In this document: one piece after another, positions 1,828 to 37,093 of the stretch | How the letters are laid out: every line of letters begins with the position of its first letter | Numbering within the stretch: the first letter of the stretch is position 1 | Virus record (IMG/VR): IMGVR_UViG_3300036852_000745 | Span: 1 to 37,093 of that record | Direction: 5' to 3' (one strand) | DNA: 37,093 nt | From: a virus | Translations under genes and position numbers: made by a program | Notes under the pieces: model-generated | The model's database searches: none | Told to the model about the DNA's origin: nothing | The model's input: the letters and a program-made list of their open reading frames with translations, nothing else

Positions 1828-2492
1828 GCCCGTGCTTTCCGGTTGATCTTTCGCCGGAGCGCGCCTAACAACTGCACCGTCTGCGCCAGCGGCTTCGGTA
1901 GATTGTGAACGGTGTTCCGCGCCATCAGCGCGCGGCGGCTGATGCACTGTAGGTTGTCGAGTCGCACGTCTCGCTTGTCGCCATTCTTGAACGCAATCGC
2001 GTGGCCCCTCGGGACCGGACCATGTGCGGCTTCCCACACCAGCAGATGCACCGCGCGCCAGCGCGCCTGCAGAGGCAGGCCGTCGTTCACCTTGCGCTCG
2101 AGGTAGCCATCCTTGCTGAGCCGCTCGGTGCCGATTGGCTTGTAGAGCCGAACCGCGAAGCCCCGCCGCTCGCCCTTTTTGAACTGCGTCTCACGCATCC
2201 GACCCGGCGCCCAGCCGGGCCGGCGCAGTCCCTTATTCGCGGGCACGTGACCTTTCCGGAATCGGAAGCGCGCGCCGACGTGATCGCCGCGGCGGAGCCG
2301 ACAGGCGGCCGGGCTGGCCAGGTATGCCGCAGACTTGTTCAAACCCAGCTTGTCCGCCCGGCCATACACGGCCGCCACGGTCCGCTTCAATCGCCGCGCA
2401 ACAGCTGCCGTGGGGGTGTCGGGATAGAGGTCGCGTAACAATGAGTCGTCCTCGCGAGACCACCGGCGATGGACATAGACACCGGACGGCAT
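1824..2492 (-). CDS. HNH endonuclease with N-terminal Myb/SANT-like HTH (homing type)
   Basis: 222 residues; the ATG overlaps the ParB stop (TGATG). Residues about 10-52 (WSREDDSLLRDLYPDTPTAA, ending in VYGRADKLGL) look like a Myb/SANT or HTH DNA-binding domain. A basic linker follows (FRKGHVPANKGL, FKKGERR), resembling the NUMOD-type modules of homing nucleases. Residues about 145-195 form the HNH fold: VHLLVWEAAHGPVPRGHAI, then FKNGDKRDVRLDNLQCI. Together these are typical of a free-standing HNH endonuclease that nicks or cuts DNA and spreads between phages. The tail ends NTVHNLPKPLAQTVQLLGAL, conserved in several such proteins. Translational coupling to the ParB gene suggests a settled insertion. 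Activity is inferred from family. Confidence 0.86.
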   Translation of the reverse strand: MPSGVYVHRRWSREDDSLLRDLYPDTPTAAVARRLKRTVAAVYGRADKLGLNKSAAYLASPAACRLRRGDHVGARFRFRKGHVPANKGLRRPGWAPGRMRETQFKKGERRGFAVRLYKPIGTERLSKDGYLERKVNDGLPLQARWRAVHLLVWEAAHGPVPRGHAIAFKNGDKRDVRLDNLQCISRRALMARNTVHNLPKPLAQTVQLLGALRRKINRKARA

Positions 2493-4060
2493 CAGTGGCG
2501 CCCCTTCTTCTTGGCCGGTTTCGTCGTGGGCGTCTTGGCCGCGGGCTTCGGCTTCGGCGCGACCTGGTCGACGATCTTCGCGGCGTCGATCCCCAGCGCG
2601 CGGAGATCCTTCACCGCGTCCGCGTGCCGGTAGTAGCCCGGCGCCAGGTCGTCCACGTCGTCCGCATAGAGCTGGAAGGCGGCATACCGCAGGAAGTCCT
2701 CCGCGGTGTGCCCACGGGCGACGGTGGTATTGGCCTTGCCGCCACGAATGCACGCCGCCAGCACATCGTCGGCGAGGTTGCTGCGGGGTCCAGCCGGTGT
2801 CGCGGCGAGCTTCTCGGCGAGCGCCTTCAGGACCGCCGGCCGCGCCTTCACCCAGCGCGCGCGCTCGGCATCGCGGGCCGCCTCTTCACGCTGCCGGCGG
2901 AGGTTGTCCTGGATCGCGGTGCTGCCGCTCGTGTCCCGGCTAGCGGGGCTGGCCCGCCGGCGCTTGGCCGCGCGCGCGGCCGCCTGGAAGTGTACGTCGC
3001 AGCGATCGCGATTGACGCAGACCCGGAACGCATCCCCGCGATCGCGGCCGGCGGCGACGATCCCGATGCGGCTCCATGCGCACGTCTTCGACTTCCGCTG
3101 CCCGTCGGCCCGCCGCCACGAGCTGATGCCATAGGTGCGGACCTTGTGGTCCTTGGCCTCGTGTCTCAGTTGGTGGTCGTAGGTGATGTAGACCGGCGTC
3201 AGGTCTTCGGTCTTCACCACGTCCATGGCCGCGGCGGTCGCCGGGAAGAGGAAGGGATCTGCCTCCTCCGGCCGGAACCGGACATGGTCGTTGATGTAGT
3301 TGCCGAGCTCGCGCACACTGACCGCCTTGACGGCGCGGGTCAGCTCGAGCGATGGCTGCTCGAGATCGTAGTCGGCGTCCTCGCCCTGCCAGAGGCCGCC
3401 GCCGGCCGAGAACTGGTAGCGGTTCACGCGCTTGGGGTCGCCCATGACGCGCTTCTGCTCGGCCGGCTTGAGGCGCGCGAGCAGGATGGCATGGCCCGCG
3501 GTGATCGTCCCCTCCTCGAGGTACTTCTTCGCCTCGGGGATCAGCTGCAGCAGTTTGAGCCGATCGTAGACGTACTTCATCGAGAGGCCGATCCGCGCGG
3601 CGAGCTTCGAGACGTCGTAGCCCGCCTTCTCCATGAGCATCCGGAAGCCGGCGGCCTCGTCGAGCGGCGTCACGTCCTCGCGCTGCTTGTTCTCGATCGT
3701 CAGGAGCTCGAGGAAGGCGACGTCGTCGAGCGGTCGGACCACGGCCAGGAGGCTCGCGAGCCCCGCGAGCGGCGCCGCCCGGAACCGCCGGTGGCCAGCG
3801 CCGATCTCGTAGTACGGCGTCGCTTCGTCGCCCCACTTCGACCCCTTGCGCACCATCGGGCGCACGACGATCGGCGTCAGCTGCCCGTTCACCCGCAGCG
3901 ACTCGGCCGTCTCGGCCAGCTTCGTCGGATCGAAGTGCTTCCGCGGGTTCCAGGGCGACTCGACGAGCTGCGTCAGTGGGACGAGGTGGACCTGGGCAGG
4001 GACTGCTTCGGCGGGGTGGCCTTTCACGCCCCCCGGGGCGACAACGGCGACTGCGGTCAT
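2492..4060 (-). CDS. parB: ParB/Spo0J-family partition protein with long cysteine-containing C-terminus
   Basis: 522 residues from ATG 4060, just downstream of the tRNA. Residues about 25-130 form the ParB N-terminal CTPase domain. The SPWNPRKHFD segment, the GAGHRRFRA box (near 87-95, the GERRxRA equivalent) and the ENKQREDVTPLDEA box (near 123-136) are all present. These are the residues that bind CTP and clamp DNA in true ParBs. Residues about 147-195 form the HTH domain (YDVSKLAARIGLSMKYVYDR, then EEGTITAGHAILLARL). The C-terminal 300 residues are longer than in chromosomal ParB. They carry a Cys cluster (CAW and CVNRDRCDVH), an Arg/Ala-rich linker and a Lys-rich tail. No ParA is visible nearby. 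It could load on parS-like sites for partition, or act as a phage regulator or nuclease. The palindromes reported below are candidate sites. Confidence 0.9.
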   Translation of the reverse strand: MTAVAVVAPGGVKGHPAEAVPAQVHLVPLTQLVESPWNPRKHFDPTKLAETAESLRVNGQLTPIVVRPMVRKGSKWGDEATPYYEIGAGHRRFRAAPLAGLASLLAVVRPLDDVAFLELLTIENKQREDVTPLDEAAGFRMLMEKAGYDVSKLAARIGLSMKYVYDRLKLLQLIPEAKKYLEEGTITAGHAILLARLKPAEQKRVMGDPKRVNRYQFSAGGGLWQGEDADYDLEQPSLELTRAVKAVSVRELGNYINDHVRFRPEEADPFLFPATAAAMDVVKTEDLTPVYITYDHQLRHEAKDHKVRTYGISSWRRADGQRKSKTCAWSRIGIVAAGRDRGDAFRVCVNRDRCDVHFQAAARAAKRRRASPASRDTSGSTAIQDNLRRQREEAARDAERARWVKARPAVLKALAEKLAATPAGPRSNLADDVLAACIRGGKANTTVARGHTAEDFLRYAAFQLYADDVDDLAPGYYRHADAVKDLRALGIDAAKIVDQVAPKPKPAAKTPTTKPAKKKGRH

Positions 4061-10891: not shown

Positions 10892-13800
10892 TTATCTGGC
10901 GGCCAGCAGTACGCGGCAGAGCATGAAGCGCATGTTCGCCAGGTCGGTGGTAGCCCGCAACGCCACCTCGATGTAGTAGGTGTAGGTATCCCAATCGACG
11001 AAGTGGTCGACAGTTGCATCGGCGCCCTCCACCCACGCGTTGGCCGCCGTGCTGTCCGAGACCTGCGCCACGATCGATCCCGCGGTCCCAGCAAGCGGGA
11101 TGCGCCACAACGTGGCCACGATCTGCCCACCTCCGCCGCCCGCATTGCCGATGTAGTGACGCGATTTAAAACCGACAATATGAAGACCCTGCAGCATCGC
11201 GGTCGGTGTCAAATGATGCAATCCCTCGTTGTCATTGCCCAGGGTCGGCGGGCGGGCGTGCTCGCTGGTGAAGTTCCACTCTTCTCCAGGGGTGACCGCC
11301 ACCCCGAACTGGCCGGCGCCTAAGATGAGGTCCTCGGGCTCAAGTGCGAAATCGCGACTGGCGAGATTCACGTCGGCAAGAATGTCCGCATACCCTCGCG
11401 GGTGGATCGTGAAGAAGCGCCCCGACCCTACGCGCTGGAGCGGTCCTACGGCGAAGCGCCGACCCTTGATCTCCTGGTCCACGTTGGGATCGCGCGAGAC
11501 AAACAGGTCGGTCTCGACCGCCACGATGTCGCCCATCTCGAGCTCGGGGTAGCGGTCCACGGACGTGAAGCTCCACAGCATCTCCCCTGTGCCGAGTCGT
11601 TCCACGGTGCGGTGACCCACAGATTCCGCCAGCGCATCCGTGTCGATCCACTTGGCGATCTCCTCCTCGAGCCACTTCGGCGGCCCGAGCCCCACGGTCC
11701 CAATCTTGAGAATGGAGTCCGTGTGGAACGCCCGCACCTCGTCCTTGAACTCCTCCTGCGTCGCGTCCCACCGGTAGGGCACGAAATACTCAGGCAGGCG
11801 ACGCTCGTGACCGGGCGAGGTCTCGCCGATCTTGATGCGCCGGGATCGAAACAGCGCCCGGATGGATTGCCCCGGCGAGAGGTCGAACGCTTTGATGCGC
11901 CCTTCCGAGGACCCGATCGCCGCGTCGGCGAGGAACGCAATAGCCTCGATCTCCGTCTTGGCCACCACGTCCTTCGAGCCCGGGGAGCGTTTGCGGAGCC
12001 CCGTGATCTGCTTCGAGACCGTCGTGGTCGTGTTCTCGATGCCCGGCCCACGGAGGTTGGCGGGGATGGAGAGGCGGTTCGCCAGTAAGTCATCGTAGAC
12101 GGCCTTGAGCGTCTGGTTCGTGTAGGTGACGACCTCGCGGCGCCCGCCCGAGCGGAACCGTGCCCAGTAGACGTGGGCGCGTCTATCCCCCGCCCCCCCC
12201 GTCGCATTGGCAACGAACGCCAGCCGCACGTTGGGCAAGTCCGTGAGCTGCGCGATCTGCGCCTCCGTGAACTCCATCGTAGACTGGACCCGATCGGGGC
12301 CAATGTCCGCCTTCACGAGCTCCGCCACCAGTGTCGTCGTCTGATAGCCACGGATCTTGAGCTCGAGCGTCTGCCCGCCGGCGGCGTTCTTGGCGTAATC
12401 GCAGTCGAGGAACAGCCGCCGCCCCGCAATATCCGTCGGCGTGGGGAGCGTGAAGACCACCTCCTGGTTCGACGGGTTCAGGCCCGAGCGGATGCCGTCC
12501 GTCTCATCCGCCACGAGCTCATCGATGCCCAAATGAATGTTGGTCGTGCCGCCGGCCAGATCCTGCCAGCTCCCGATTGTCTGGGTGCCGTCGGGCGCAT
12601 AGCTCGTCCCGGGTGAGAACGGCGGCGCCAGGTCCTTGAGCAGCGCACAGAGCCCGACGAGCTGCAGCTCGATCACCGGCTGGCGTGGCCGGGAGTCAAG
12701 CACCAGGAAGTCGTCCATGTGCGTCCACAGGTTGCGGGAGAGCGAGGGGGCGCCCACGAACCACCGGATGCGGATGTCGTTGATGAAGTTCTCGGCCAGC
12801 AGCTTCTCGATCTTCGAGCTGAACGCTTGCGGGCCGGTCTTGGGGCCATCTTTCACCGCCACCAAGCGAGGCCGGGGAATCTCTACGCGGTGCGTCTCAG
12901 GATCGAACGCTTGCTCGTAGCCCTCAATGGTGGCCACGCGGGAGAAGTCGATGCGGACGATCGCCTGGCGGCCGAGCTTGCGGAGGGTGGGCGTGAGGTT
13001 TCCCGCGGCGTTCGGCGTGAGGGTGGCCCGCAGCTTCTTGCTCTGGGGGGACGCGAAGCCCAAGTCGGCTTCCTCGAATTGCCCATTCGTGAACGCCACC
13101 CAGGCGGAGTCCGCGTCGTTGCGCACCTCCAAGGTGACGGACGTGCCGGAGGGTGTCTGCACGAGGCCCACGAGCTCCACGTCGCCCGTCGGCGCCGCGC
13201 CCAGGTCGAACAGGTTGCCCGAGGAGAACGTGATCGTCGCAGCAGTATAGGTACCGTTCTCAATGGTACACCTCGGCGTGCCACCGGCAGACCCGTCATC
13301 GTGCAATAACCCTTTATCAGGAAGGAGGGTGGTGTTAAGCCGACGGCTGCGGAGGATGTTGCCGCCCTGCGTCACCGAGGCCGTCGTGGAATCGTAAGCG
13401 AGCCCGGTGTTGGCTGCAGCGCCCCCCGATGGATTCAGGGCGTACACAAAAATGAGCATCGAGTCGCGCAGCGGGAAGTCTTCCGGGCGCAGATCGCTGG
13501 GAATGATGGTCCGCACACTCTTGGGCTGGGGACGCTGCGACAAGGCGCTGAAGTCGAACGTCACGAGTCCAGCGGTATCCCCTGTGACAGCCATGTCCAC
13601 CGCTTCACAGAGCGGGGCCAGGCGGTACACGTTGGACGGGGAAACGCCACGTTCGGGGTACATGAGTTCGACCCGCCACTTGCCACCGTTGATCATCTCA
13701 TTTTTCTGGCTCCCGCTAATCCGGGGGTTGAGCCATAGCTTGACCCGCAGAATCTCAAAGTCGGCTGGTTCAGTGCCCTTCCACTCGCACATAATGACAT

Positions 13801-14083
13801 CAAACGGCGCCACCCGATCTAGCCCCGTGAAATGGCTATCAGATGCCGCGTGCGTGAGCAGGGTGTTAGTGGCGTCCTTCAGCCGGAGATCCCCATTGTC
13901 GAACCGGATGAAGTCCGCATCGACCGCCGCGGCCCCGCCGTCCGCTTCTGCCCATTCTTCCTTCGTGTCCCGGAGGTGGGCGAGCTGGGCGCCGGCCGCG
14001 CTGCGCTCGATGACCAGAGCTTCGAGGTAGTCCCGGGCCGTGGGATCAGCCCGGCGGACGAGCGGGATGAGCGACGGCGACAT
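10892..14083 (-). CDS. Large tail-tip/baseplate or host-recognition protein
   Basis: About 1063 residues from ATG 14083; GTG 14092 three codons upstream is an alternative, and neither has an obvious ribosome-binding site. It is the largest gene in the window and follows the tape measure and two minor tail genes, the position of the tail-tip or central fibre protein. The N-terminal half contains beta-rich segments (ILRVKLWLNPRISGSQKNEM, then NGKWRVELMYPERG-like text). The middle region has LFDLGAAPTGDVELVGLVQT. The C-terminal region contains an HYIGNAGGGGGQIVATLW glycine loop and VDWDTYTYYIEVALRA. I see no lysozyme motif. Adsorption or tail-tip assembly is inferred from position and size. Confidence 0.8.
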   Translation of the reverse strand: MSPSLIPLVRRADPTARDYLEALVIERSAAGAQLAHLRDTKEEWAEADGGAAAVDADFIRFDNGDLRLKDATNTLLTHAASDSHFTGLDRVAPFDVIMCEWKGTEPADFEILRVKLWLNPRISGSQKNEMINGGKWRVELMYPERGVSPSNVYRLAPLCEAVDMAVTGDTAGLVTFDFSALSQRPQPKSVRTIIPSDLRPEDFPLRDSMLIFVYALNPSGGAAANTGLAYDSTTASVTQGGNILRSRRLNTTLLPDKGLLHDDGSAGGTPRCTIENGTYTAATITFSSGNLFDLGAAPTGDVELVGLVQTPSGTSVTLEVRNDADSAWVAFTNGQFEEADLGFASPQSKKLRATLTPNAAGNLTPTLRKLGRQAIVRIDFSRVATIEGYEQAFDPETHRVEIPRPRLVAVKDGPKTGPQAFSSKIEKLLAENFINDIRIRWFVGAPSLSRNLWTHMDDFLVLDSRPRQPVIELQLVGLCALLKDLAPPFSPGTSYAPDGTQTIGSWQDLAGGTTNIHLGIDELVADETDGIRSGLNPSNQEVVFTLPTPTDIAGRRLFLDCDYAKNAAGGQTLELKIRGYQTTTLVAELVKADIGPDRVQSTMEFTEAQIAQLTDLPNVRLAFVANATGGAGDRRAHVYWARFRSGGRREVVTYTNQTLKAVYDDLLANRLSIPANLRGPGIENTTTTVSKQITGLRKRSPGSKDVVAKTEIEAIAFLADAAIGSSEGRIKAFDLSPGQSIRALFRSRRIKIGETSPGHERRLPEYFVPYRWDATQEEFKDEVRAFHTDSILKIGTVGLGPPKWLEEEIAKWIDTDALAESVGHRTVERLGTGEMLWSFTSVDRYPELEMGDIVAVETDLFVSRDPNVDQEIKGRRFAVGPLQRVGSGRFFTIHPRGYADILADVNLASRDFALEPEDLILGAGQFGVAVTPGEEWNFTSEHARPPTLGNDNEGLHHLTPTAMLQGLHIVGFKSRHYIGNAGGGGGQIVATLWRIPLAGTAGSIVAQVSDSTAANAWVEGADATVDHFVDWDTYTYYIEVALRATTDLANMRFMLCRVLLAAR

Positions 14084-14238
14084 GGCGCGCACGTTAGCTT
14101 AGAGGCCGGGGGTGAGACGCGGGTTCAATCCCCGCCACAGGGAAGTGCCAGGGCTGGGCTCGCCGGAGTGGACGAAGGGAAGTCGCCCCCCAACTCCTGC
14201 GCGACCGAGCCTGGTGGCGACGCGCCTCACGAGACGCT
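14084..14238. other. Intergenic region between tail genes with a tRNA T-arm-like sequence on the plus strand
   Basis: Bases 14119-14135 read GCGGG-TTCAATC-CCCGC, a perfect T-arm stem-loop. They differ by one base from the T arm of the tRNA-Gly in this window. The next seven bases (CACAGGG) have no partner upstream, so no complete tRNA can be folded. It may be chance, a tRNA remnant or an attachment-site core. No gene is seen in this stretch on the minus strand. Confidence 0.35.
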
Positions 14239-25702: not shown

Positions 25703-27274
25703 CTAGACGGTCCGGATGCCACGTTCTCCGTAGACGCTCGGCCGCGGCCGTTCCCGGACGACCAGGTCGTGGGCGATCACCGCGGCGACGGCGAGGTCGA
25801 TCTTCCGCGGCGAGTCCTTGTGGTCCTTCGTGATCCGCGGGCCCCGGTGATCGATCTTGACGACGCAGTTGGCGACGTGCTGGGCGAGCCGCGGGTCGCC
25901 GTCGTGGGAGAGCTGCTTGTTCACCACGGCCTCGTAGAACGCCGAGCAGGCCGGCACCATGATCGACGCCTGGTGAGAGGGCCAATCGATCACCGTGTCC
26001 TGCCCAAACTCCACGCGGAGCAGCTCGAGGGACCGGTGCCAGAGCGCGGGGTCGCAGCCGGCGCGCTTGACCCGCCAGGTCGTGAACGCCTTCCGGATCG
26101 CCGTCTCGACGTCCAGCACGTCGACGTGCCACTCGGGCTCATTGGCCGGCTTCTCCCAAGCGTCGATCACGAACAGCCGTCCCTCGAGCGTGCACCCCAC
26201 GAGCGCGGTGCTGTCGCGCGCATAGGACCCGTCGAACCCCAGCATGATCGTCGTTCCCTTGGGCGGGGGCGCCCCGGGAACGGCGACAGCGTCCCACGAG
26301 CCAATCGGGAGCCAGCGTTCCGGCGCCGACACCCACTGATTCAAGTGGTAGCGCCGGAACTCGAACTCCGAGATTTGCTGGAACCGTGCCATGACGCTCG
26401 CGAGCGGGAGGAAGTCGCCGACCGCCGGGTTGGCTTCGCGGATCGCCTGCTCGAGCTGGACGGGATCCCGGAGATCCCACGTCGGTGACGCCTCACACCA
26501 CCGGCACAGGAACTTCGGGTCCGCCGCCTCGCCGGCGAGCACCTTCTTGCCGTGCAAGTACATGCGGCCGAGGAGCGACGTCGGGTCCCAGCCGGCCGTC
26601 GTGATCGCCAGCTCCCAGGCGTCGGCGCGCTTGGTGCGGTTGTTCGAGAGCACCAGGTGCACCCGCTCCTTGTTGCCCGTCCACTCGTGGAGCTCGTCGG
26701 CGACCCAGAACGTCGGCTTGCCGCCGTCGTTCGTGCCGGCGGCCGCGGCGACCCGGTAGAGCCGGCCGGGCTTCCCCTTCAGGAGGATCTCGGTGTCGTA
26801 GACATCGCACGAGTGGGCGAGTGCGCCCTGCTTGATCATCGTACAGGCCGCGGCGAAGACGTGATCGGCCTGCTCGAACGAGGCGGCCGCAACCGGGATG
26901 TCGGGTGAGAGGCGCGACTTCCCGCGCGGGGTGCCGTTCGCCTTCCACCCGGCGAACATCACCGGCCCACAAAACTCGGCCACGGACACCGCCGCCGCGA
27001 ATTCCGTCTTGCCGTTCCCCTTGGGGAAGCCCAGCAGCACCCGCTCGTACACCCGCGTCCCGTCCGGGTTGAGCTCGTAGGCCTCGTAGAGTGGGGCGCG
27101 CTGCCAGGGGCGGAGCCGGAACGGCTTGCCGAAATAGTCGCCCTCGGCGTGCACGAGGTTCCGCTCCATCCAGCGGCAGACGACCGGCCCCAACGTGGGG
27201 CGCAAGCCGTCAGGAGCGGGCGGGGCGGAGGAGCCGCGGGTCTTCTTCTTCGTCCTGGTCGTCGTCGTCGGCAT
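25703..27274 (-). CDS. terL: Terminase large subunit
   Basis: 523 residues from ATG 27274, with GAGG six bases upstream; this start overlaps the small subunit by 65 bases. ATPase motifs are Walker A GFPKGNGKT (82-90) and Walker B FWVADELHEW (D193/E194). The nuclease domain has LGFDGSYARDSTALVG (D348) and a late RKIDLAVAAVIAHDL. FRLRPWQRAPLYEAYELNP is the usual entry to the ATPase. It belongs to the terminase-like COG4626 type that works with P27-type small subunits and cuts and pumps DNA into the prohead. Confidence 0.95.
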   Translation of the reverse strand: MPTTTTRTKKKTRGSSAPPAPDGLRPTLGPVVCRWMERNLVHAEGDYFGKPFRLRPWQRAPLYEAYELNPDGTRVYERVLLGFPKGNGKTEFAAAVSVAEFCGPVMFAGWKANGTPRGKSRLSPDIPVAAASFEQADHVFAAACTMIKQGALAHSCDVYDTEILLKGKPGRLYRVAAAAGTNDGGKPTFWVADELHEWTGNKERVHLVLSNNRTKRADAWELAITTAGWDPTSLLGRMYLHGKKVLAGEAADPKFLCRWCEASPTWDLRDPVQLEQAIREANPAVGDFLPLASVMARFQQISEFEFRRYHLNQWVSAPERWLPIGSWDAVAVPGAPPPKGTTIMLGFDGSYARDSTALVGCTLEGRLFVIDAWEKPANEPEWHVDVLDVETAIRKAFTTWRVKRAGCDPALWHRSLELLRVEFGQDTVIDWPSHQASIMVPACSAFYEAVVNKQLSHDGDPRLAQHVANCVVKIDHRGPRITKDHKDSPRKIDLAVAAVIAHDLVVRERPRPSVYGERGIRTV

Positions 27275-33886: not shown

Positions 33887-34053
33887 GCCCGGTTCCAGGC
33901 GTCGAGCCTGCGCTGCTCGACCTCGTACTGCTTGAGCGCGTCCTGCCGCGACTGATGCGTGACGCCCCGACGACTCTCGCAGCGGTGCCCGGGCGCCGCG
34001 TTGCACGTCGGGCAGCGGACGTCGAGCGGACCGGACGGCGCGCGCTCAGGCAT
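33874..34053 (-). CDS. Small phage zinc-finger protein (CPxCxAxPGxxC type)
   Basis: 59 residues from ATG 34053, overlapping the ATPase stop by eight bases. LDVRCPTCNAAPGHRCESRR, then GVTHQSRQDAL, is the common phage zinc-finger signature CPxC-x-A-xPG-x-x-C-x(6-8)-HxxR. It continues as a helix (KQYEVEQRRLDAWNRACQK). Such proteins are scattered through actinobacterial and proteobacterial phage genomes and are thought to bind nucleic acid. Confidence 0.75.
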   Translation of the reverse strand: MPERAPSGPLDVRCPTCNAAPGHRCESRRGVTHQSRQDALKQYEVEQRRLDAWNRACQK

Positions 34054-35695
34054 TCCGGATCCGGACCTTCATGTCCGTGACCGATCGGTACAGCGTGCGC
34101 TTGCGGTGTTGGTCGTCTTTCCCCTCCTCGATGGTGACGAATCCCATCTCGGCGAGCGTCTTCATCTCGTTGTAGGTGTTCCCGGGCCCCGGATCCTTCC
34201 CGAGGCGCGCCAGCTCCTTCTGCACCGCATTCGCGGTGACGCCCTTGTCCAGGAATCCGTCGGCCATCAGTCGGGCGACGCGGCCCCGTAGAGTTTTACC
34301 GTCGACGTCGATCGTCTCGCGCGTGACGGCGACCTCGATCTCGGGCTTCGTCACCAGCACCTTGAGAACTGCTGGGGCCTCGGCGATCAGGCGGGCCTTG
34401 ATCGCTTGATAGAGCGCCTCCCCGTCGGCGGCCGGCGCGCCAGTGGGGGCCAGTGCGGCCATAGAGGGCACGGGCGGCCGCGGCGTCGGCGTCTCCGGTC
34501 GAGGCTCCGGTGTCGCGGTGTCCGGCCTCCCGACCAAGCGGCCGGCGACCAGCAGCTCGATGCGCTCCTCGAGTCGCTCGTTGGTGCGCCGGAGCTCGAC
34601 ATTCTCTTCGCGCAGGGCCTCCGCTTCTTCTGGTGTCACAGAATCCTCCGAGGTAGGTGCAGACGTCTGCACGGGCTGCGGCCGGGCATGGATGACGCCC
34701 TGCGGGATCTGGATCCGTCCCTGCGCCACGCCGATCGCCGTCGGTTCGTCCATCCACGCCGGCTGCACATAGGTCTTGATCGCGTGCTCACCGAAGCAGG
34801 CGTAGAACTCGCCGAGCTTGAGCGTCGCGACCTGCCGGGGGGTCAGCTTGGGCATGGCGACTGGCATCTGCTCGAGGGTCCGCTTCACCTCGTTCACCTC
34901 GCGCTGCACGCCCAGGATCCACACCGGCACGCTCTTCAGGATCAGCTTTTCGATGCCGGCAATGTCCTGACTGTCGAGCCAGAGATAGTTGCGGAGCGCC
35001 GCCGCCTGCCGGATGAACGCCTCGGCCGCGAGCTTGACGGGTGTCCCACGCCCCTGGGGGATGAACTTCCAAGCCTCCGGCACCACCACGATGGTGTCTT
35101 CGGCATGGTGCAGCACCCAGTCGATTGTCGCGCGGATCACGAGGTGCTGCATCTCGATGCCAAGCGCGCCCAGGTCCATGGCGTTGATGCCCGGGGCGAG
35201 CTCCACCGTCCGCGCCCACTGCACCCGCGCGATCTGCGGCACGACCGCCTGGAGATACTCGTTCAGCGTGAAGTAGACGTCGGCGCTGAGGCCCCTGGTC
35301 TTGGGATCCTCGAGCGCGGTGCGCACGTTGCGCTGGACGTCCGCCAACGTCGTGGCGCCCTTCGTCGCCCGCATGATCCAGCTGCGCTCGAACTTGAGCT
35401 TCTCGCCCAGGCTCGCCTCGAGGATCGAGGCGACGTAGCGCCACTCGATGTAGCCCGCGTCGGTCTTCTGCTCGCTGAAGTAGGGCGCGATCGTATGCGC
35501 GTCGCTGAAGCTCTCCTCTCCGCGCTTCGTGACGAACGCGACGGCCCGAACGCCGGCGCGGGCGATCAGCGCCTCAAGCGTCGTCGTCTTCCCGGCCTCC
35601 TGGGTCTGGCCGGTCACGACCATGTGGCGCAGCGGGATCGTGACGGGCGTGCCCGTGCCGATCGCGAAGCCCAAGTGCACCGTGGTGGTCGCCAT
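34046..35695 (-). CDS. HerA/FtsK-like AAA ATPase with divergent Walker motifs
   Basis: 549 residues from ATG 35695 (TGATG overlap). Residues about 10-290 are a HerA-type core. The P-loop is GQTQEAGKT (29-37), with one residue more between the two glycines than the classic GxxxxGKT. The Walker B is TIVVVPEAWKF (P206, E207), with Pro where the usual Asp-Glu has Asp. YLWLDSQDIAG (near 238-247) is the sensor region. The text after Walker B, FIPQGRGTPVKLAAEAFIRQ, matches HerA's 'G-R-G' loop. Then comes a coiled coil (EEAEALREENVELRRTNERL), a Pro-rich linker and a C-terminal winged helix (TANAVQKELARLGKDPGPGN, then MGFVTIEEGKDDQHRKRTLY). Not the packaging ATPase; that is the terminase. Possible DNA pump, end-processing or partition motor. 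Confidence 0.82.
   Translation of the reverse strand: MATTTVHLGFAIGTGTPVTIPLRHMVVTGQTQEAGKTTTLEALIARAGVRAVAFVTKRGEESFSDAHTIAPYFSEQKTDAGYIEWRYVASILEASLGEKLKFERSWIMRATKGATTLADVQRNVRTALEDPKTRGLSADVYFTLNEYLQAVVPQIARVQWARTVELAPGINAMDLGALGIEMQHLVIRATIDWVLHHAEDTIVVVPEAWKFIPQGRGTPVKLAAEAFIRQAAALRNYLWLDSQDIAGIEKLILKSVPVWILGVQREVNEVKRTLEQMPVAMPKLTPRQVATLKLGEFYACFGEHAIKTYVQPAWMDEPTAIGVAQGRIQIPQGVIHARPQPVQTSAPTSEDSVTPEEAEALREENVELRRTNERLEERIELLVAGRLVGRPDTATPEPRPETPTPRPPVPSMAALAPTGAPAADGEALYQAIKARLIAEAPAVLKVLVTKPEIEVAVTRETIDVDGKTLRGRVARLMADGFLDKGVTANAVQKELARLGKDPGPGNTYNEMKTLAEMGFVTIEEGKDDQHRKRTLYRSVTDMKVRIRNA
34657..34672. promoter_or_regulatory. Dispersed 16-bp palindrome, site 4 (perfect)
   Basis: GTGCAGACGTCTGCAC, a perfect 16-bp palindrome, lies in the linker region of the HerA-like gene. 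It defines the consensus for the other sites. Confidence 0.6.
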
Positions 35696-36294
35696 CAGAC
35701 CCCACGACCCGCCATCGCCGCGCCGCAATCGAAGAACCGATCTAAGAGGGTGGCGATGACGCCGAGGTTGTGCGCGACGATCGCCAGGTTGTCAGAATCG
35801 GGCCCACCCAGCACGGCACCCATTGGGCGTGAGAGATCGCTGCTCGGTGCCTGGGTGGGCGTGGGTGGTGTTGCACCAGGCTCCTCGCAGTCGTGCAGCG
35901 TCGCCAGCGCCTCGCCGACGCCGCGGAGCTCGTAGTCGCACCGGACCGTCCAGGGACGCTTGCAGATCCCGCAGTGGTTCACCACGAACAGGCTGTTCGA
36001 GGCGGCGAATACGACGAACGTCACGCCCTCGATGGTTGCTCTGTACGGCAGCTCCCAGGGGGTCGGGGTGTACTTAAACCATCCCGGATCAGCTCCGGGT
36101 GCATCCGGGGCGAGCGGCGTGACGGTGACGCCGGGCTTGTCGAAGTGATCTTGGAATCGCTTCGCCAGCAGGGCGCGGACGTCACGGTCGGCCGTCGCGT
36201 GTTCGTCTCGCTCGCGGTCCATGCGCTCGCGCTCGGCGTTCTCGTAGGCGAGTAGGGCCCGCTCAGCAAAATTGGGGACGGTGGTGGTCGTCAT
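35695..36294 (-). CDS. Hypothetical protein with a zinc-knuckle segment
   Basis: 199 residues from ATG 36294 (ATGA overlap); an upstream start at 36330 would overlap the neighbour more. The N-terminus (FAERALLAYENAERERMDRE) is helical. The centre has YRATIEGVTFVVFAASNSLF and a Cys set, HCGICKRPWTVRCDYE. The C-terminal 60 residues are Pro-rich, then helical (SDNLAIVAHNLGVIATLLDR). It directly precedes the ATPase and may be its partner. No family recognised. Confidence 0.68.
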   Translation of the reverse strand: MTTTTVPNFAERALLAYENAERERMDRERDEHATADRDVRALLAKRFQDHFDKPGVTVTPLAPDAPGADPGWFKYTPTPWELPYRATIEGVTFVVFAASNSLFVVNHCGICKRPWTVRCDYELRGVGEALATLHDCEEPGATPPTPTQAPSSDLSRPMGAVLGGPDSDNLAIVAHNLGVIATLLDRFFDCGAAMAGRGV

Positions 36295-36557
36295 GTGCGC
36301 GGTCTCCGATGTTGGGCGCCGTCCGGGCACGTGACGAAGTGGCTTTGGTAGAGCCGCTCGTCTGGTGCCGGCGTCATGGTGAACGTGGCGATGGGCGATT
36401 CATCCGACGTGCCGGCCGGCGGATCCGCGAGGCGGAAGCCGCGCGGCACGGCTACCGGGTCCGGATCGACGGGCATGCGCTTCTGGTTGCTCGTCACGGT
36501 CCAGACGATCGCCATACGGCAGCTGCGACAGTGGCCCAAGCGTAGGATCGGACTCAT
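36291..36557 (-). CDS. Small zinc-ribbon phage protein
   Basis: 88 residues from ATG 36557 (ATGA overlap). GHCRSCRMAIVWTVTSNQKR, then MPVDPDPVAVPRGFRL, is a familiar phage pattern in which a CxxC knuckle precedes 'MPVD'. The last part has HFVTCPDGAQHRR, giving the second Cys and His. These proteins are common in phages of high-GC hosts with no assigned role. Confidence 0.74.
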   Translation of the reverse strand: MSPILRLGHCRSCRMAIVWTVTSNQKRMPVDPDPVAVPRGFRLADPPAGTSDESPIATFTMTPAPDERLYQSHFVTCPDGAQHRRPRT

Positions 36558-37093
36558 GCCGCGATCTCCCAGTGCACCGGCTTCGTGCCGACGGCGAGAT
36601 AGAGGGGATGCTTTGGATGGCCCGCCCGAGTGAGGCCCAGGTGGTGGACGTCCACCGTCGCGGACTCGCGGCGGAGGAGCTGCTGCACGGCATGTGCGCG
36701 GCCGAACAGCGTGCCGTTCACGCCCCAGGCCGCGATCACGATCTGCGCGAACCGCGCCTCCTCGGCGATGACGTCGTCATTGCCTGGGCCGATGGAGTCG
36801 GTCGCCGGGTAGCGCCAGAGCTCCATCGGGTTGGTGGCGCGCAGCGCGAACAAGTTCACGACAACGAGGCCGCTATACCCCCAGGCCCGGGAGAACCGGA
36901 TGCACCGGCGGATGGTCGGGTCGTCCTCGAGCGCATCAGCCGTCGACGGGTTGAGCATGATCCAGCAGACGATCCGCCCCGACGACAGGCTCGGGGACAT
37001 ATCCGGATCCCCCCAGTGCCGGCGCAGCGCGAAGCGGTAGCGGCCCGTGGGGTCGATCGTCGCGTCCCGACGGATGATGAGGGGAGCGGTCAC
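36554..37093 (-). CDS. DUF1643-family protein
   Basis: 179 residues from the GTG at the very right edge (37093); the start could lie further right, so it may be partial. The signature ICWIMLNPSTADALEDDPTI-like text, RCIRFSRAWGYSGLVVVNLF, ALRATNPMELWRYPATDSIG and VIAAWGVNGTLFGRAHAVQQ matches DUF1643. This family is found in bacteria and phages with unknown activity, and possibly nucleotide-related. Its GTGA start suggests a coupled gene upstream. Confidence 0.86.
   Translation of the reverse strand: MTAPLIIRRDATIDPTGRYRFALRRHWGDPDMSPSLSSGRIVCWIMLNPSTADALEDDPTIRRCIRFSRAWGYSGLVVVNLFALRATNPMELWRYPATDSIGPGNDDVIAEEARFAQIVIAAWGVNGTLFGRAHAVQQLLRRESATVDVHHLGLTRAGHPKHPLYLAVGTKPVHWEIAA

Follow-up and report, generated by a model that had tools for sequence, protein, structure and literature searches.

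The 37,093-nucleotide viral DNA analysed in the current study (hereafter the window, meaning this whole stretch) encodes a member of a large family of HerA-like DNA-motor ATPases, hitherto without a name, that is found in uncultivated phages and in some archaea. The window gene is not an isolated curiosity, nor has it decayed. Its motor carries active-site residues that are invariant or nearly so among 101 aligned relatives drawn from phages, archaeal virus contigs and archaea, and its C-terminal winged-helix module is swapped between phages like a cartridge. The features of the gene and of its upstream neighbour, in window coordinates, are as follows:

34046..35695 (-), HerA-like ATPase gene; ATG start, 549 amino acids, stop codon within the coordinates
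34691..35695 (-), motor domain, residues 1-335, delimited by AF2, Foldseek and hhalign
35585..35611 (-), enlarged P-loop GQTQEAGKT, residues 29-37; family-wide Gx[TS]Qx[AS]GKT, aligned by hhalign with HerA GxTGxGK[ST]
35516..35530 (-), TKRGE, residues 56-60, at the HerA DxxGE motif; K57 and E60 invariant, D176 lost
35075..35092 (-), Walker B strand IVVVPE, residues 202-207; P206 and E207 in 101/101
35009..35011 (-), R229; Arg in 100/101, Lys in 1/101; one helical turn before the HerA Arg-finger position (A232)
34964..34975 (-), DSQD, residues 241-244, end of strand 4; D241 specific to the type with Pro-Glu in Walker B (PE type), Q243 the sensor-1 Gln
34547..34633 (-), coiled-coil helix, residues 355-383, from the AF2 model
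34049..34423 (-), C-terminal module, residues 425-549, with a PadR-like winged helix at about 469-538, from AF2, Foldseek and sequence entropy
35695..36330 (-), upstream gene, function not assigned; without a Pfam, PHROG or PADLOC match

The gene, its fold and its setting

An earlier note on this DNA had given the coordinates of the gene, the motifs GQTQEAGKT (residues 29-37) and VVVPEAW (203-209) and the numbering of E207, all of them correctly. Its identification of the product as a HerA-like ATPase is borne out by the structure prediction that it had proposed as a check. An AF2 model built from 30 sequences (mean pLDDT 84, pTM 0.62) displays a RecA/HerA fold, in which a short N-terminal beta segment precedes the RecA/HerA core and a four-helix insertion separates strand 2 from the Walker B strand; the coiled coil and the C-terminal winged helix that the note had described as fused to the motor are present in the same model. 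The best PDB match found by Foldseek is HerA (4d2i, E 1.8e-14), and HerA-NurA, SIR2-HerA, DndH, DUF4297-HerA, VirB4 and TrwB are also matched. Overall TM-scores are modest (0.3-0.6), and therefore the kinship is at the level of the superfamily. An hhalign comparison of the family profile with twelve canonical DUF87 proteins likewise gave a probability of 95.6 and an E-value of 1.2e-8. A sensor-1 glutamine at the end of strand 4 is a mark of the FtsK-HerA superfamily (PMC10853773), and Q243 occupies this place in the window protein. We regard membership in this superfamily as practically certain. Just 28 residues precede the P-loop, and thus the HAS barrel, to which NurA binds in HerA (PMC9960219), is absent.

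The start of the ATPase gene overlaps the stop codon of the upstream gene by 1 base, an arrangement of translational coupling as in an operon. Read in one direction, the window presents a DUF1643 gene, genes of unassigned function, the ATPase, a RuvC-like resolvase (PHROG 159, E 1e-7) and TerS/TerL, then portal, capsid, tail and CHAP genes and finally, at the opposite end, a ParB-like gene. From this gene content, the source of the window is a tailed phage. The ATPase gene lies in the early region, outside the head genes, and TerL is encoded elsewhere, at 25703-27274 (PHROG 9, E 1.6e-94), with both its ATPase domain (PF03354) and its nuclease domain (PF20441). Three other proteins deserve mention in their own right: the ParB-like protein (2492-4060, minus strand; ParB_N and HTH_ParB, 522 amino acids), a tail-region protein of 1066 amino acids without any Pfam or PHROG match (10892-14092, minus strand), and the DUF1643 protein (36554-37093, minus strand; E 8e-41), which is located upstream of the ATPase at the window edge.

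Distribution of the family

Neither Pfam nor NCBIfam gave the ATPase protein a match above cut-off, and a single-protein query of PDB chains by sequence found no match. In IMG/VR, a single-protein query recovered 34 loci, and an alignment query recovered 112 relatives, of which 80 were kept. MAG contigs contributed 21 more, labelled as Gemmatimonadota, Acidobacteria, Chloroflexi and Deltaproteobacteria among bacteria and as Bathyarchaeota, Nitrosopumilus, Nanoarchaeota and Methanofollis among archaea. The bacterial-labelled contigs are dispersed across the viral tree, which suggests that they are prophages or viral contigs. Searches by tblastn with three queries against 50,697 annotated phage records, and with one query against 72,556 plasmids, found no member of the family. 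Among 106 relatives of the window phage recognized through TerL, mostly short fragments, the ATPase gene was absent from the 80 loci examined, many of which lack flanking sequence.

The earlier note had proposed searching for the motif family and its usual neighbours. The family was readily found, but no constant partner gene accompanies it, and the genes directly beside it vary from locus to locus almost without exception. Genes that recur nearby, a matter of recurrence and not of enrichment, encode ParB, DUF5131, methyltransferases, DnaB, integrases, Ku, RuvC-like proteins and the recombination proteins YqaJ and AAA_24. Proteins with ParB_N occur in 13-15 of the 50 viral contigs longer than 30 kb that carry the ATPase. 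Ku-like proteins are phage-encoded in seven ATPase loci (for example L059:7880-8717, minus strand).

In one Bathyarchaeia clade, the gene is kept on the chromosome, within a housekeeping locus. In four Bathyarchaeota genomes (L122, L123, L124 and L129), it adjoins genes whose functions, read by eye, are those of FEN1, DNA ligase and an M20-type peptidase; where the contig reaches further, SRP54, ribosomal-protein and glutamine-synthetase-like genes are nearby, again as read by eye. No virus genes were seen around these chromosomal copies. The two Bathyarchaeia genomes sampled for this purpose (G001 and G002) also contain separate DUF87 HerA-type genes. Strong matches occur in 8 of 121 sampled relatives of one Bathyarchaeia genome, and members are present in 4 of 398 genomes across the phylum Thermoproteota; the archaeal chromosomal copies are thus a patchy trait. 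A fifth Bathyarchaeia copy (L183:3235-6126, minus strand, genome G014) is interrupted between K36 and T37 (GMTQLSGK|T) by an intein-like insert of about 400 amino acids that has an N-terminal Cys, a C-terminal HN and LAGLIDADG-like blocks.

The active site and the C-terminal module

The unusual P-loop and the Pro-Glu Walker B to which the earlier note drew attention are real and far from chance, given that GxT/SQx[A/S]GKT is present in 99 of the 101 aligned relatives and P206 with E207 in every one. Within the P-loop, G29, G35, K36 and T37 are each found in 101/101 and Q32 in 99/101. Elsewhere in the motor, K57, D241 and Q243 reach 101/101, and E60 and R229 each reach 100/101. Between near pairs, dN/dS of the motor is 0.01-0.14, and the motor is under strong purifying selection. 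Together with the invariance of the motifs, these values point to a functional and constrained active site, and we predict with considerable confidence that the protein is an active ATPase.

The note had further assumed that the GRG loop and the rest of the HerA pattern were intact, which does not hold. The loop is variable in the family (G215 in 66/101, R216 in 75/101 and G217 in 53/101), and the positions of D176 and of the trans Arg finger R381 have changed as well. Relative to canonical HerAs, the hhalign alignment places one inserted residue in the P-loop, a Pro in place of the Asp at the first Walker B acid position, and the family TKxGE opposite HerA DxxGE, with loss of D176. The Arg-finger position, located on that alignment by its spacing of 25 residues from the catalytic Glu, is occupied by a small residue in the family (A, G or S; A232 in the window protein). 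The ATPase activity of Sulfolobus HerA needs K154, D176, E356 and R381 (PMC4351679); here, equivalents of the Lys and the Glu are kept, and those of D176 and R381 are altered. Three invariant residues are new with respect to HerA, namely K57, R229, which stands three residues ahead of the finger position, and D241, which precedes the sensor-1 Gln by two. In the ASCE fold, the P-loop strand (strand 1) and the Walker B strand (strand 3) flank strand 4, and D241 is therefore placed where it could replace the lost Walker B carboxylate, a putative role to which we give rather less than an even chance. From the alignment, the P-loop, Walker B, Arg finger and D241 appear to have changed as a set, in a concerted remodelling.

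Three relatives retain Asp-Glu in Walker B (DE type):

L185, 8973-10442, DE relative with GTTGSGKT, IDE and Arg at position 232 (canonical P-loop and Arg finger)
L187, 404-2098, DE relative with GQTQFSGKT and IDE
L190, 1847-3502, DE relative with GQTQFSGKT and IDE

Neither R229 nor D241 is present in any of them. No more than five columns combine invariance among PE members (at least 100/101) with a different residue in all three DE relatives, and P206, R229 and D241 are three of these. The three residues covary with phylogeny, and in this sample of three DE sequences the pattern possibly reflects a single evolutionary event. When the motif columns are removed, the DE relatives no longer fall cleanly outside the PE group. 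A stepwise order, in which the P-loop changed before Asp gave way to Pro, is suggested by L187, L190 and the full tree; it is unstable without the motif columns, and we do not claim it. A coiled-coil region common to the DE-type L187 and L190 and the PE-type L191 and L192 suggests that modules may have been exchanged between the two types.

Residues 425-549 are modelled as a winged helix at high confidence (AF2 pLDDT 92.8). Its nearest structural relatives by Foldseek are PadR regulators, and the Pfam MCM C-terminal winged helix is matched by four members. The scaffold is conserved (P451, G471, A474, L476, G518 and F519), whereas the recognition region (484-513) is hypervariable, with about 3 bits of entropy at exposed positions. 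Among 56 pairs with motors more than 75% identical, 28 have winged helices less than 50% identical, the pair L089/L097 being an example (motor 92%, winged helix 35%). Reciprocal pairs also exist, as in L041/L048 (motor 68%, winged helix 79%), and the swap break is located near residue 325, at the end of the motor. Beyond this residue, phage pairs for which dS is finite give dN/dS values of 0.34-0.58, and one Bathyarchaeia pair gives 0.10. The hypervariability and the swapping lend indirect support to the earlier suggestion of site-specific loading through the winged helix, and we consider it likely that the module docks on DNA in a sequence-specific manner.

A search for k-mers shared by loci of one winged-helix type found nothing over the simple-repeat background. 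In one locus (L105:7892-12295), heptamer-spaced GTGATTCGTGA repeats occupy several intergenic regions, with 15 matches against 0.5 expected. We considered the copies flanking the gene as a binding site and rejected them, because repeat searches of the close relatives L031, L103 and L115 were negative and the repeats lie at several intergenic places in L105. At L080:10001-11840, the motor and the coiled coil with winged helix are encoded as two overlapping ORFs, through natural fission or a frameshift. Three archaeal members (L128, L132 and L133) consist of the motor only, and the winged helix is therefore not essential to the family. In L128 and L133, a small gene overlaps just upstream, whose product has a ribbon-helix-helix appearance as judged by eye.

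Proposed function and related systems

We propose that the ATPase serves as a self-targeting DNA translocase for handling the viral genome before packaging, and we hold this reading, taken as a whole, to be evenly poised between right and wrong. The protein probably forms a hexamer around double-stranded DNA, which would probably pump DNA with ATP; D241, at the end of strand 4, could supply the carboxylate that is absent from Walker B. The winged helix, tethered by the coiled coil, would bring the motor to a specific DNA site, which most likely belongs to the genome of the phage itself, and the exchangeable docking modules would differ between phages. Its job would most likely fall at an early stage of replication, recombination or segregation, by oriented pulling, decatenation, partition or resolution of replicated DNA, and the filling of capsids would be left to TerL. 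That the protein is a double-stranded DNA translocase we judge probable, with some reserve, and that its substrate is the phage's own genome during replication or segregation we advance as possible, at somewhat less than an even chance.

A motor of HerA/FtsK type might instead serve defence or counter-defence, capturing competing DNA or blocking a host system in the manner of mad8 or DndH, with the winged helix tracking foreign targets. Such domains have repeatedly been captured by anti-invader systems with fast-evolving winged helices (PMC10853773, PMC12839542), and PADLOC mad8 (MADS_8) is the nearest named profile for the window protein (E about 3e-8, or 3.4e-8), for 20/30 members and for the canonical-motif relative L185 (E 5.5e-16). 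However, this profile also gives matches in 14/14 control genomes, and we rejected mad8 as an identity for this lack of specificity. PADLOC found no match among ten other window proteins, mostly encoded around the ATPase gene, and neither a nuclease nor another constant partner was found beside the gene. We consider a defence role distinctly unlikely. An end-processing function, in which a HerA-type helicase or translocase feeds a nuclease in recombination, was among the roles raised in the earlier note and gains something from HerA being the best structural match and from the RuvC-like, YqaJ, AAA_24 and Ku genes that recur in the region. Yet the docking domain for NurA is missing, NurA (PF09376) occurs in 0 of 50 viral contigs longer than 30 kb, and the D176 and R381 equivalents of HerA are lost, all of which make this role improbable.

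HerA/FtsK-type ATPases package DNA in tailless viruses, and an accessory motor for packaging or DNA injection, working with TerL or the portal, would have a parallel there. An FtsK-gamma winged helix is also known from a small terminase (PMC8190038), and a PHROG terminase profile (PHROG 2666) gives a weak match to residues 192-285 of the window protein and to 15/30 members. We rejected this as an identity: the match is local only, the true TerL of the window is not matched by PHROG 2666, and TerL Pfam models do not match the ATPase. The complete TerL of the window, the location of the gene outside the head genes, and the Bathyarchaeia chromosomal copies among FEN1, DNA ligase and SRP54 genes all argue against packaging. 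The earlier note had reasoned similarly from TerL, and its view gains from TerL being present in at least 18 of 50 other viral contigs longer than 30 kb that carry the ATPase, with two TerL families searched and many contigs being fragments. We deem a packaging or injection role quite improbable. Lastly, the missing Walker B Asp and canonical Arg finger could mark a pseudo-ATPase, a DNA-binding scaffold that binds ATP without hydrolysis. This is very unlikely, since K36, T37, E207, Q243 and R229 are invariant or nearly so across phages and archaea and the motor is so strongly constrained. Moreover, inteins favour the catalytic sites of active enzymes, and the archaeal P-loop carries such an insert.

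Returning to the self-targeting translocase, a more far-reaching version, which we think unlikely to hold in full, is that the Walker B carboxylate passed from strand 3 to its neighbour, strand 4 (D206 to P, S241 to D), and the Arg finger shifted by one helical turn (R232 to R229), so that with the longer P-loop they would form an alternative, fully active HerA-type site. The viral genome-handling motor would then exchange its docking domain like an incompatibility determinant and would have become a resident chromosomal gene in one archaeal lineage. Few features of P-loop motors are as well conserved as the Walker B acidic residue and the trans Arg finger. Given that both are displaced identically in about 100 relatives, the family offers a natural test of how far catalytic geometry can be rebuilt, for which the DE-type relatives L187, L190 and L185 are ready controls. 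The family also represents an early gene that is common in uncultivated phages yet has no name and was missing from the collections of annotated phages and of plasmids that we searched, and its rapidly exchanged DNA-recognition module hints at self/non-self specificity in the handling of phage genomes.

Of the known systems, archaeal and bacterial HerA (DUF87, PF01935; 4d2i, 7wrw and 9x1m) share with the family the fold, the helical insertion after strand 2, the catalytic Glu and the sensor Gln. The family differs in the absence of the HAS barrel and NurA, in the additional P-loop residue, in the Walker B Asp/Glu changed to Pro, in the altered D176 and R381 positions and in the added winged helix. 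mad8 is similarly a HAS-less HerA-like ATPase whose motor begins directly at strand 1, and it is the best-scoring named family in most members; however, the score is weak and comes from a profile that matches many genomes, other mad genes were not found among the ten window proteins, and the likeness is judged from the profile score. The C-terminal HerA/FtsK domain of DndH (7es4) and the HerA/FtsK capture systems combine the same core with variable winged helices, whereas in our family the winged helix is fused in cis and no defence partner genes lie near the window gene. The VirB4 C-terminal domain and TrwB (4ag6, 1e9r) are also HAS-less HerA-like motors (TM-score by target 0.46-0.59), but their active-site residues differ and no conjugation genes were seen. 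Unlike FtsK and SpoIIIE, the family lacks a membrane domain, and its winged helix is PadR-like by Foldseek; nevertheless, these proteins with their gamma winged helix may work alike, as a motor that docks on DNA through a C-terminal winged helix.
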